Assembly (NCBI GenBank): GCA_020444065.1
Contig: JAHLLQ010000002.1
Location: 744,001 to 808,000 of the forward strand
From: a bacterium
GTDB taxonomy: Bacteria; Sumerlaeota; Sumerlaeia; SLMS01; JAHLLQ01
Reading direction: 5' to 3'
Length of the DNA stretch: 64,000 bases
Positions 1,541 to 9,387 of this stretch are shown here, piece by piece. The position numbers and the translations under genes were made by a program. Each line of letters opens with the position of its first letter. Positions within the stretch are counted from its first letter, which is position 1. The notes beneath the pieces are model-generated. The model saw only the letters and a list, made by a program, of their open reading frames with translations. It made no database searches and was not told the DNA's origin.

Positions 1541-4258
1541 TTACGGCTCTCGTCGAGACCAGCCGTCCCAATTGGAGACTGGATCGCCTGCGACAGTGAA
1601 TTCCTGGCCGGAATCGATTGCCAACGGCGTGCCGCGCAATCGCAGCCAGTGGTTCTCCGAATCGTAGGCCCAACCCCGCTCCGCAGTGTCCCACGCATCT
1701 GGATCGGATATCTGGGGTAGGGGCTTGCCCTGGAACTGCGCGCTCTCGGGCTGATCGAGCAGGTGAATCTCCGCCTCGTACCGCCGCAAGTCAGGCTGGC
1801 CGTCGTAAGATCCGACTGCACCGCCGATGCGAATCTTCAGGGCGTCGCCCATCGGGGCAGCTTCCACCTCGTACGTCGTCGTGGCGAAGCGCCCGTCTTT
1901 GTATTCCATCGACAGGCCGTCGTCTTCGTAGAGACGGCCGTGAACGGTGCGTCCGCGCTTCGGTGGCCAGATCCGCAGTTTCACGGTCTCTCCGGTTTCA
2001 CCTAACGAGGATCCCAGTGGAATGATTGCGGGGGCCTTCACATACAGCGGGAAGCGATCCGATCTTTCTGCGACCGAAATGCTGGTCGGGCCGTCGATTG
2101 CCGCGCCGGTGAACCAATCGAACCACCTGCCCTGCGGCAGATAGACCTCCGCGCGATCGCCGTGTTCGTCGGTGACCGGGCGAGCCAGTAGGTGTGGCCC
2201 GAACAGGAATTCCGTCCCCAAGTCCCGAACCTGCGGATCGGAAGGCCACTCCAGGACCAACGGACGCAGCACGGGGATTCCCGAATCGTAGGCCTGCCTT
2301 GCCAACGTGTAATGGCACGGCAGCAACTCGTAACGAAGTTCGAGCGCATCTCGAACGCCGGCTTCGATTTCCGGGCCGAAACTCCACGGCTCGATCGTCT
2401 CGCGCCCGCGCGGCTGGAACAGCTGGTCGAACAACGCAAACTGTGCCCAGCGCAGATAGAGCTCGCCTGATGGCTTGCCCCAGTATCCCCCCAGGTCCGG
2501 GTTCCAGTGGGGAAGACCACCCAGGGTTCCGTCCGCCTCGCGCCAGTCGCGTTCTCCGGGGCGATGTGTCCCATTCGCCGACTGCACCTGCGGGTTCGAT
2601 ACGATCCGTACGTCCATGTGCTGCTGCGGTAATTCCATGCCATTGACCTGGCTGGAATCCACCGTCACAGCATCCAACGGCAGGGCGCGAATCTGGAATT
2701 CCTCGACCAGGCGATGAATGTCCGCGATCGAATCGCGCGTCGTGGAAAGGTGGACATTCCCCAGCGTCCAACGCGGAGGCATATCAGCGCGACCCACCAG
2801 GTCGGAGTACTGTTCGAGGACGCTGTACATCGATTCCCCGACCATCACGTACCAGGTCAGTTCGCCTTCGTCCGAAGAGTAGACGGCTTGCTCCGGATTG
2901 CCGAACCCCAGGTCCAGCCAACCCATCGCGGGGTTGTCGACGAAGATCCCGTAATTCCGGGGCGTGACCCAGAACGGCACGATCGTGTGCGAAAGCCGCT
3001 GACGCGTGCTGAGAACTCGCAGCAGATATCCCCGGCGGCTCAGTTCGATTCCCGATGAACCGGGGCCTCCGCCGAAGCCGTACACGTCCTCGTCGGGCTC
3101 CAGGGTAAATGCTATCTCGCGCGCCTTCCCTGCGGCCAGTGGCGGGCGGCCGACGGGATGCTCAACCAGCATTGTCCCATCCGGGGACCTGTAAATCGGG
3201 CGAATCGGATCGCGCTCGATATCGACGCGCCATCCGGCGCCTTCAATGACGATCGGATTGCCATCGGTGACCTCGAACGGCGTTTCGGGCCAGTCCTCGC
3301 GCGTAACGGACCAGGACTCCCGGGGCCCGAAATCACCAGTGGGGGAGAAGTCCATCTGCACGGTGCCTTCCAGGCGCGGCACCAAACGAATCGAGCCCTG
3401 ATCGGATTGGAAGACCACACAAGTCGTGCCGGCGTCGTAGCTGGTCAGATTCCCGAGCTGCACGAAGTCCGGCATCGGCGGAGAATCCGTGAAGTGCCGG
3501 CGAGTCCATGCCGACGGCGGATGCTCGTAGCCGATCTCGCCGATGGAGAAGTAGCCGAAGTCGAACGTGTATGGTCCCTCCGGCGTGAAGCCGATCAGGA
3601 CCAGTTCCGTGTTGTTCATTACCCACACGGACTCGACGACGGTTTCGTCAAAGACGAGCGCATCGCCTTCAAACGTCGGGTCGGTCGACACCTGCGCTGT
3701 GATGCGCACCGGGCCGGCGCCTTCGACTTTCAAGTGAACATAGAAGAGATCGCCGGGCTTGATCTCGCACGAATGCGGTTCGATCAGGTCGTTGAAACCG
3801 CCGCCTTGGCGACGAAGCCGAATGCGATCGTTCAAACCATCGAGCGTGATCAGGTAGCCTTCCTGCTTGTCGCTACGGAAGGCGATTTCCGCGTTCCGTT
3901 CTCCGGAACCGGAATCCACGAAGTCGGTCATTCGGATTGATGTATAGAGCTCGAAATCGTTCTTCGGGAGAACATGCGCAATGCTGCCAGTCCCGAGCAG
4001 GCCGGCATAGACGGCGCCGTTGCCGATGCGGGCGGCGCCGCGGGTCCCGCCCATCTCCACGCGCGGATCGTAGCGGAAGAGCTGGCGATTGCCTTTCCAA
4101 AAGTCCACGTTCAGCGACCCTGGATCTCCCATCGCCATACCCCAGTCGAACTGATCGTAGTAGGCCTCCTGGGGCTCGGCGGAGGCAATATTCCCACCGG
4201 CCGCCAGCACTGCCGCGACGCCGAAAACGGAGAGAATTTTGGTGAAACGCCTGCGCAT
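1541..4258 (-). CDS. Secreted GH31-like protein lacking the catalytic barrel core
   Basis: 905 residues with a signal peptide (cleavage probably after A-S-A at 27). Residues ~30-245 look like an extra beta-sandwich (LamG/keto-disaccharide-hydrolase-like). From ~320 it follows glycoside hydrolase family 31: N-terminal beta domain with E-D-V-Y-G-F-G-G (390-397), barrel entry L-P-L-D-A-V-T-V-D (526-534), the late barrel motif G-G-Y-W-G-K-P (590-596), E-P-W-S-F-G (623-628), the L-R-Y-x-L-L-P helix and the C-terminal beta domains. Between ~537 and ~588 the family normally has 150-200 residues carrying the W-x-D-x-N-E nucleophile strand and the W-x-G-D acid/base loop; neither motif is present. The frame stays open across the junction, so this is an in-frame loss. 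It may be a carbohydrate-binding pseudoenzyme, or less likely an assembly join. No GH31 activity is predicted. Confidence 0.75.
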   Translation of the reverse strand: MRRRFTKILSVFGVAAVLAAGGNIASAEPQEAYYDQFDWGMAMGDPGSLNVDFWKGNRQLFRYDPRVEMGGTRGAARIGNGAVYAGLLGTGSIAHVLPKNDFELYTSIRMTDFVDSGSGERNAEIAFRSDKQEGYLITLDGLNDRIRLRRQGGGFNDLIEPHSCEIKPGDLFYVHLKVEGAGPVRITAQVSTDPTFEGDALVFDETVVESVWVMNNTELVLIGFTPEGPYTFDFGYFSIGEIGYEHPPSAWTRRHFTDSPPMPDFVQLGNLTSYDAGTTCVVFQSDQGSIRLVPRLEGTVQMDFSPTGDFGPRESWSVTREDWPETPFEVTDGNPIVIEGAGWRVDIERDPIRPIYRSPDGTMLVEHPVGRPPLAAGKAREIAFTLEPDEDVYGFGGGPGSSGIELSRRGYLLRVLSTRQRLSHTIVPFWVTPRNYGIFVDNPAMGWLDLGFGNPEQAVYSSDEGELTWYVMVGESMYSVLEQYSDLVGRADMPPRWTLGNVHLSTTRDSIADIHRLVEEFQIRALPLDAVTVDSSQVNGMELPQQHMDVRIVSNPQVQSANGTHRPGERDWREADGTLGGLPHWNPDLGGYWGKPSGELYLRWAQFALFDQLFQPRGRETIEPWSFGPEIEAGVRDALELRYELLPCHYTLARQAYDSGIPVLRPLVLEWPSDPQVRDLGTEFLFGPHLLARPVTDEHGDRAEVYLPQGRWFDWFTGAAIDGPTSISVAERSDRFPLYVKAPAIIPLGSSLGETGETVKLRIWPPKRGRTVHGRLYEDDGLSMEYKDGRFATTTYEVEAAPMGDALKIRIGGAVGSYDGQPDLRRYEAEIHLLDQPESAQFQGKPLPQISDPDAWDTAERGWAYDSENHWLRLRGTPLAIDSGQEFTVAGDPVSNWDGWSRREP

Positions 4259-8179: not shown

Positions 8180-8643
8180 ACTTTCTCCCGGTATGATAAT
8201 TCCGGCGACGACGTGTCGTGCGTTGTGGACGATTTGACGTGAGCAGTAATTGCTGTCGGCACAGACCTGCCAAAAGAAGAGAACTTGACCACATACGTCC
8301 CTGTCGCGGTGGGCGTTCCGGAGCACCCACCGGCAAAAACGGGGCTATCTGACCCGTGATCCCCGGGGCCCGTCAAGGGAAACCCCTGACCAGTTGTCCC
8401 CGGTGAAAGGCATAGTCCTCCTCTGCTCTTCTCGCGCGCGTCCATCCGCCATCCCAAGGCGCGCACTGTGGGCACGGTGGGGCGGCCGATGCAAGCCCAT
8501 GTTCCACTCTCTCGCCCCTCTGGCGCGAGGTTCAGGTTGCACCGTGGGGGGCAGGGGCCTTTGACTGCGGGCCGGTGCGGGATCGGCGTCTGGACGCCCG
8601 GCGCGCCCGTCCGACTAACTCGATCTTGGGAGATTTCCCCAGA
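8180..8643. other. Long divergent intergenic region with hairpin and possible leader peptide
   Basis: 464 nt separate infB (reverse) from the unknown gene at 8644 (forward). I see no conserved gene. On the infB strand there is a 7-bp hairpin at 8307-8332 (CGGTGGG/CCCACCG). There is also a 22-codon open frame at 8345-8413 preceded by AGGAGG only 3 nt before its ATG, and a TTGACG at about 8371-8376 that could be a -35 element. None of this proves regulation, but the leader is unusually long for this compact genome. Confidence 0.5.
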
Positions 8644-9387
8644 ATGCTTAAGAATTTCCAGACGACGTCAATCTTCCTCGGCCTCTTCCTGCGCAAGCTG
8701 GAGGTCCAGGATTACCGCAATTTCGCGGACACCCTTCCGTGGCGACTGCCCGAATTCGACAACGAGCCCCAACTGGCTCCGGTTCCCCCCGATGCCAAGC
8801 CGGACATGAGCCGTGTACGCTTCATGTCGAAGGACACTCGTCTAATGATGGAGGTCGCCCCTGCCAGGATCCAATTCCGCATGATGCCCGGCGAAGTGAC
8901 CAAGACGGAGCAGGGCATGAATCTGAAGGCCTTGCCGGTTGCCGAGGCCTTCGACCAGTTCATTCCCCAGGCCATGCGCATCCACACGACTCTATCGGAG
9001 CACTTCGGTGCGACCGCCCTGCGTGTGGGAGTCGTGACCGATATCATCTCCCCTGTGCCGAGCAGCGCCAATCAGCGCATGCAGCAGCATATTCTGGGGA
9101 ATCCGAATATCTTCGGCGAACGACTGAGCGAGTTGCAGATGTCCGCGGCTTCCCGGACCCAACTGGAAGGCGGGATCGGAATCAACCGTCGCCTCGGCAT
9201 TCGTTCCATGCGCACGAATCAGCCCGGCAACCCCGATCTGCTTCTTAACATCAATATCGACATCAATACGTTGGCAGAAGAGTCCTATGATGTCTCGACG
9301 ACCGAGCTGGAGAAGTTCCTGCGCGGCGCGTTGAAGCACATGGACAACAACATTCCGCTGATGAACGAGCGGTCTCTCTTCGAATAA
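8644..9387 (+). CDS. Hypothetical protein (possibly TIGR04255-like)
   Basis: 247 residues, no signal peptide or membrane segment, and no catalytic motif I recognise. The body alternates short beta-rich stretches (R-L-M-M-E-V-A-P-A-R-I-Q-F) with helices, and the C terminus reads as an amphipathic helix followed by M-N-E-R-S-L-F-E. The length and a central L-R-V-G-V-V stretch loosely recall the TIGR04255 family of unknown function; that resemblance is weak. GGGAG lies 9-10 nt before the ATG at 8644. The frame is open upstream to 8575 but that part reads as low-quality leader. argH begins 17 nt downstream, so the two are probably cotranscribed. No function is assigned. Confidence 0.7.
   Translation: MLKNFQTTSIFLGLFLRKLEVQDYRNFADTLPWRLPEFDNEPQLAPVPPDAKPDMSRVRFMSKDTRLMMEVAPARIQFRMMPGEVTKTEQGMNLKALPVAEAFDQFIPQAMRIHTTLSEHFGATALRVGVVTDIISPVPSSANQRMQQHILGNPNIFGERLSELQMSAASRTQLEGGIGINRRLGIRSMRTNQPGNPDLLLNINIDINTLAEESYDVSTTELEKFLRGALKHMDNNIPLMNERSLFE

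Follow-up and report, generated by a model that had tools for sequence, protein, structure and literature searches.

Does a gene that carries both ends of a GH31 barrel, with the catalytic centre apparently lost in frame, encode a retained protein, a decaying remnant, or a product of misassembly? We examined this for a gene in the window, i.e., the 64,000-nucleotide stretch of a bacterial contig (Candidatus Sumerlaeota) that was analyzed as a whole. With a probability of about 0.68, we read its product as a secreted homologue of GH31 glycosidases, shortened by within-domain atrophy, that is catalytically dead and was probably kept for glycan binding or scaffolding. The gene comprises 905 codons with zero internal stops, and four Pfam GH31 models exceed the Pfam cut-offs in its product (hmmscan), which establishes GH31 homology by sequence (Table 1). 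An in-frame loss of the catalytic centre between two barrel ends, as the original prediction had it, was borne out by this frame and by a split Pfam match: PF01055 matches in two pieces lying 117 bases apart, ~200 model positions are replaced by 39 codons, and the net shortage in the barrel is about 160 residues. The same 5.2-Mb genome encodes 5 other GH31 barrels, all with an unbroken match from model position 1, 2, or 3 to 327 or 328; the sole additional barrel match (C9:38664) falls below the cut-off, and the genome-wide Pfam search returned no detached catalytic fragment above it. The proposed signal peptide and added N-terminal beta region were also recovered, the former judged by eye from a positive n-region, a hydrophobic core, and an A-S-A (to residue 27) preceding E28, the latter as an all-beta region spanning residues 28–260.

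Table 1 Coordinates of the atrophied GH31 gene, its parts, and two short GH31-derived genes from other genomes (window positions unless a locus is named).
Feature	Location	Strand	Basis or remark
Complete gene of the atrophied GH31 protein (P0001), 905 aa	1541..4258	-	Single open frame
Sec-type signal peptide, residues 1-27 (MRRRF..AVLAAGGNIASA)	4178..4258	-	Judged by eye from sequence
Possibly CBM66/LamG-like all-beta region, N-terminal (residues 28-260)	3479..4177	-	Without Pfam match
GH31 N-terminal mutarotase-like beta domain (Gal_mutarotas_2), residues 297-449	2912..3370	-	PF13802, E 3.5e-9
GH31 barrel, first part (beta1, beta2), PF01055 positions 2-49	2642..2785	-	Genome-wide Pfam search
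Junction, 39 codons replacing PF01055 positions 50-251, with beta3-like strand 549-552	2525..2641	-	Pfam and AlphaFold
GH31 barrel, last part (beta7, beta8), PF01055 positions 252-328	2303..2524	-	Genome-wide Pfam search
Q-P-R in place of beta8 R-x-H, residues 615-617	2408..2416	-	Alignment with 54 relatives
GH31 C-terminal beta domain (Glyco_hydro_31_3rd), residues 660-746	2021..2281	-	PF21365, E 2.5e-22
DUF5110, residues 759-832	1763..1984	-	PF17137, E 2.3e-14
Short GH31-derived protein P0002	L041:3472-4683 (G004:C137)	+	About 403 aa
Short GH31-derived protein P0003	L039:779-2188 (G002:C45)	-	About 403 codons

To locate the loss relative to characterized enzymes, we aligned the window protein to PDB entries with phmmer, in which residues 310 to 513 of FjDex31A correspond to residues 541 to 579 here; most full-length relatives carry 152–173 extra residues across the same interval. 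Catalytic positions were taken from PDB titles, i.e., D412, mutated in FjDex31A, D412, the nucleophile of Agd31B, and D455, the mutated or nucleophile residue of an Enterococcus enzyme, and all three lie inside the missing part. Both the beta4 Asp nucleophile and the W-x-G-D acid/base after beta6 are absent, and the complete (beta/alpha)8 barrel is no longer there, with PF01055 positions 50–251 gone and only beta1, 2, 3, 7, and 8 in the AlphaFold model. In the original prediction, the stretch from about residue 537 to 588 replaces the lost centre. This needs one correction: the modeled strand 549–552 resembles beta3, and the loss is therefore best described as beta4–beta6 plus the beta2–beta3 connection. 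On this sequence evidence, the window protein is almost certainly without hydrolytic activity.

A protein that is still an enzyme, its pocket completed by new catalytic residues or by partners, e.g., through dimerization, is the least probable of the readings we considered and would be quite surprising. The fungal GH10 case of barrel atrophy was reported to be weakly active (PMC4432964), D529, D534, and D588 are retained in the window protein, and MAFFT aligned W572-R-E-A-D576 of the linker onto the W-x-G-D acid/base. However, both catalytic strands and R-x-H are gone, and the W-R-E-A-D resemblance is no better than chance, 1742 of 2000 shuffled linkers scoring as high. That the linker preserves part of the nucleophile block was likewise rejected, the match being no better than those of shuffled linkers.

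The prediction of a shortened barrel was compared with known structures through an AlphaFold model built from an alignment of the window protein with 54 GH31 proteins, all with complete barrels. GH31 parts flanking the gap were modeled with pLDDT mostly >90, barrel strands were placed at residues 501–505, 530–533, 549–552, 588–589, and 614–616, and the linker was disordered (pLDDT < 50 over 554–583). The best Foldseek matches in the PDB were all GH31, FjDex31A first (TM 0.63/0.70). This agrees with a GH31 fold in which beta1, 2, 3, 7, and 8 are kept; since the input alignment contained complete barrels only, the high pLDDT of the flanks may derive from these, and the model shows compatibility with, rather than proof of, folding of the shortened barrel. 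An internal in-frame loss would have removed beta4, beta5, and beta6, i.e., the nucleophile and acid/base strands, together with the beta2–beta3 connection, and the five remaining strands may stay packed between the intact GH31 beta domains, joined by a short flexible linker.

Functional partial TIM barrels are described as extremely rare, most apparent cases being artefacts (PMC4432964, PMC4443539), and Triant and Pearson warn of the same for most partial domains (PMC4443539). Had the assembler dropped the segment, or had it been lost recently, the remainder of the pocket would be expected to persist. We evaluated residues outside the gap, using 78 columns conserved in ≥80% of the 54 GH31 relatives. 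Eleven of these are deleted in the window protein (no relative lacks more than 3), and 53 of the remaining 67 are retained, including the structural motifs PPRW-LG, ELYLRW-QF, and EPWSFG. The pocket residues fared differently: R615, present in 53/54 relatives, is replaced by Q, H617, present in 54/54, by R, and the beta1 R and beta2 W of the nearest clades are missing. Lost conserved positions were not significantly concentrated in the barrel compared to the rest of the protein (Fisher p 0.11). Because pocket residues outside the gap have also changed, the loss seems to be ancient and genuine, not a slip of assembly, and structural residues retained alongside changed pocket residues suggest a long evolution with the frame maintained. 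This pocket decay is our main answer to the partial-domain warning (PMC4443539), and together with the lost segment it leaves the original call of a pseudoenzyme well supported.

An assembly error, with some 480 bp omitted in frame from a complete GH31 gene, is accordingly improbable. The genome is a draft, partial domains are often artefacts (PMC4443539), and a GH31 from another draft also misses an internal stretch, though with its nucleophile retained; but the contig carrying the window gene is 864 kb long, the junction is flanked by no direct repeat beyond one 11-bp imperfect repeat, the 39 replacing codons have no significant similarity to the lost segment, and the R615 and H617 changes would be left unexplained. 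A small artefact risk persists, as no orthologue was found. The other shortened draft gene (L054:2554-4800, from an Ignavibacteriales MAG) lacks the stretch around beta3, a loss that is either real or itself an assembly error.

The search for orthologues extended well beyond the phylum. None was found in its 40 searchable genomes, a scan of 84,980 species genomes with the protein alone gave no match, and a second scan of the same set returned none with the window junction among its best 80 GH31 loci. The same junction was not found among about 120 other GH31 proteins, and a query spanning the junction, run against 386 genomes, aligned with the listed relatives on the C-terminal side only, with the exception of G003:C110, a contig-end fragment that retains the barrel core. 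All other GH31 members compared were complete in the gap region, except for contig-edge fragments, L054, and P0002/P0003. The closest stretch among the matches listed shares 50% identity over 84 residues at the barrel end, and another relative (L141) 38% over 312 residues. In phylogenetic trees, the window protein is nested among complete GH31 members, indicating core loss from an ancestral complete domain, and sits on a long end branch (1.4–2.0) outside the Sumerlaeota clade that contains the complete paralogue L005; its neighbors are GH31 of Bacteroidota, Kryptoniota, and Eisenbacteria, its exact place among them being unsure. We also asked whether relatives carry a complete orthologue at the corresponding site, which was rejected: no GH31 lies near their nitrilase neighbors, and synteny is missing. 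Around the window gene itself, an MgtE transporter, a nitrilase, and IF-2 provide no pathway hint and no polysaccharide locus.

Several of these observations would also fit a decaying pseudogene, i.e., a functionless protein whose centre was lost too recently for stop codons to appear: the gene occurs in one genome only, without syntenic or sequence orthologue, lies outside any polysaccharide locus, and has a long branch. We consider this unlikely, though it is the most serious of the alternatives, as the 905-aa frame, a normal GC3, and the signal peptide are all intact, and changes have struck pocket residues outside the gap while structural ones were retained. GC by codon position is gene-like in every segment, linker included; codon bias in the linker is weaker (0.08 vs. 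a reference mean of 0.40, SD 0.16).

Retained barrel-poor GH31 proteins do occur in this bacterial family, as attested by a second atrophied GH31 conserved between two of its species (G002 and G004). These short proteins, P0002 and P0003, consist of beta1–beta2 and the GH31 C-terminal domain with a short middle between them, and lack the catalytic strands, the mutarotase-like domain, and a recognizable signal peptide; their gene directly follows one whose product resembles an RND-type transporter fused to an ABC ATPase. They share 60% identity, with NG86 estimates of 0.35 for dN and 2.66 for dS, i.e., a dN/dS of about 0.13 (0.12 without the first 18 codons), which is rough because dS is near saturation. 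Like the window protein, they have a GH31 barrel reduced around beta1–beta2 and beta8. They group with L005 and its clade, and the hypothesis that they and the window protein share an origin was rejected (p-AU 0.0026). Separate origins imply at least two atrophy events among the GH31 proteins of this bacterial family, one of which (P0002/P0003) shows signs of constraint. It is conceivable, though we put it forward only tentatively, that in one Sumerlaeota family the catalytic strands disappeared from GH31 barrels on two independent occasions and that the products were then kept as non-enzymatic proteins. If true, GH31, with about five barrel strands left, would be a scaffold taken up more than once to bind or sense glycans.

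With the GH31 alpha-glycosidases FjDex31A (6jr6/6jr8) and Agd31B (4b9y), the window protein shares the mutarotase-like N domain, barrel parts, the C-terminal beta domain, and DUF5110, but it lacks beta4–beta6, and with them nucleophile and acid/base, and the R-x-H of beta8. Heparanase-2 belongs to a different family and retains its whole barrel. This GH79 pseudoenzyme (PMC12406646) has in common with the window protein that it is a secreted glycosidase relative without activity. Within-domain atrophy was defined by Prakash and Bateman in 2015, with a Cryptococcus albidus GH10 xylanase and LuxF among the examples (PMC4432964). As in those cases, an internal loss of core strands from a TIM barrel left the frame intact, and the xylanase is also missing one catalytic residue; unlike it, the window GH31, which is known from sequence, has lost three catalytic-face strands rather than one, and both catalytic residues. 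The window protein is an unusually large instance of enzyme-domain shrinkage, which is itself known, and no GH31 pseudoenzyme of comparable kind was found in the open-access literature. Together with P0002/P0003, it offers two test objects for barrel survival after loss of core strands and for the roles of such relics, and GH31 annotation from domain ends alone overcounts enzymes.

For the window protein, we infer a carbohydrate-binding role, probably that of a secreted protein that binds glycans or acts as a scaffold. The surviving barrel is without the sugar-binding R-x-H, and glycans would be contacted by the N-terminal beta region and by those beta domains that remain, not by the old pocket. 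No Pfam match was found for N-terminal residues 28–260, and the best PDB match, a levanase CBM66, was sub-significant (E 0.1–0.2); strands appear only in a low-confidence AlphaFold model of the protein, and a separate model of the region alone had a pLDDT of 33. Its sole, weak relative in the 40 searchable genomes of the phylum is found in G014 (33% identity, E 5e-5), as the C-terminal part of another secreted protein. That protein (L051:253-1977; G014:C25) has a possible TIM-barrel part besides the C-terminal copy of this region, and almost no Pfam match.

Two further genes were observed nearby. To the left of the window, ~5 kb from the atrophied gene, L043:4707-5903 (minus strand; G000:C2:739707-740903) encodes what, as judged by eye, is a secreted protein whose N-terminal part resembles CBM20 and which also has an esterase-D-like domain. 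Within the window, a 270-aa open reading frame without Pfam match (8575-9387, plus strand) lies between the genes for IF-2 and argininosuccinate lyase.
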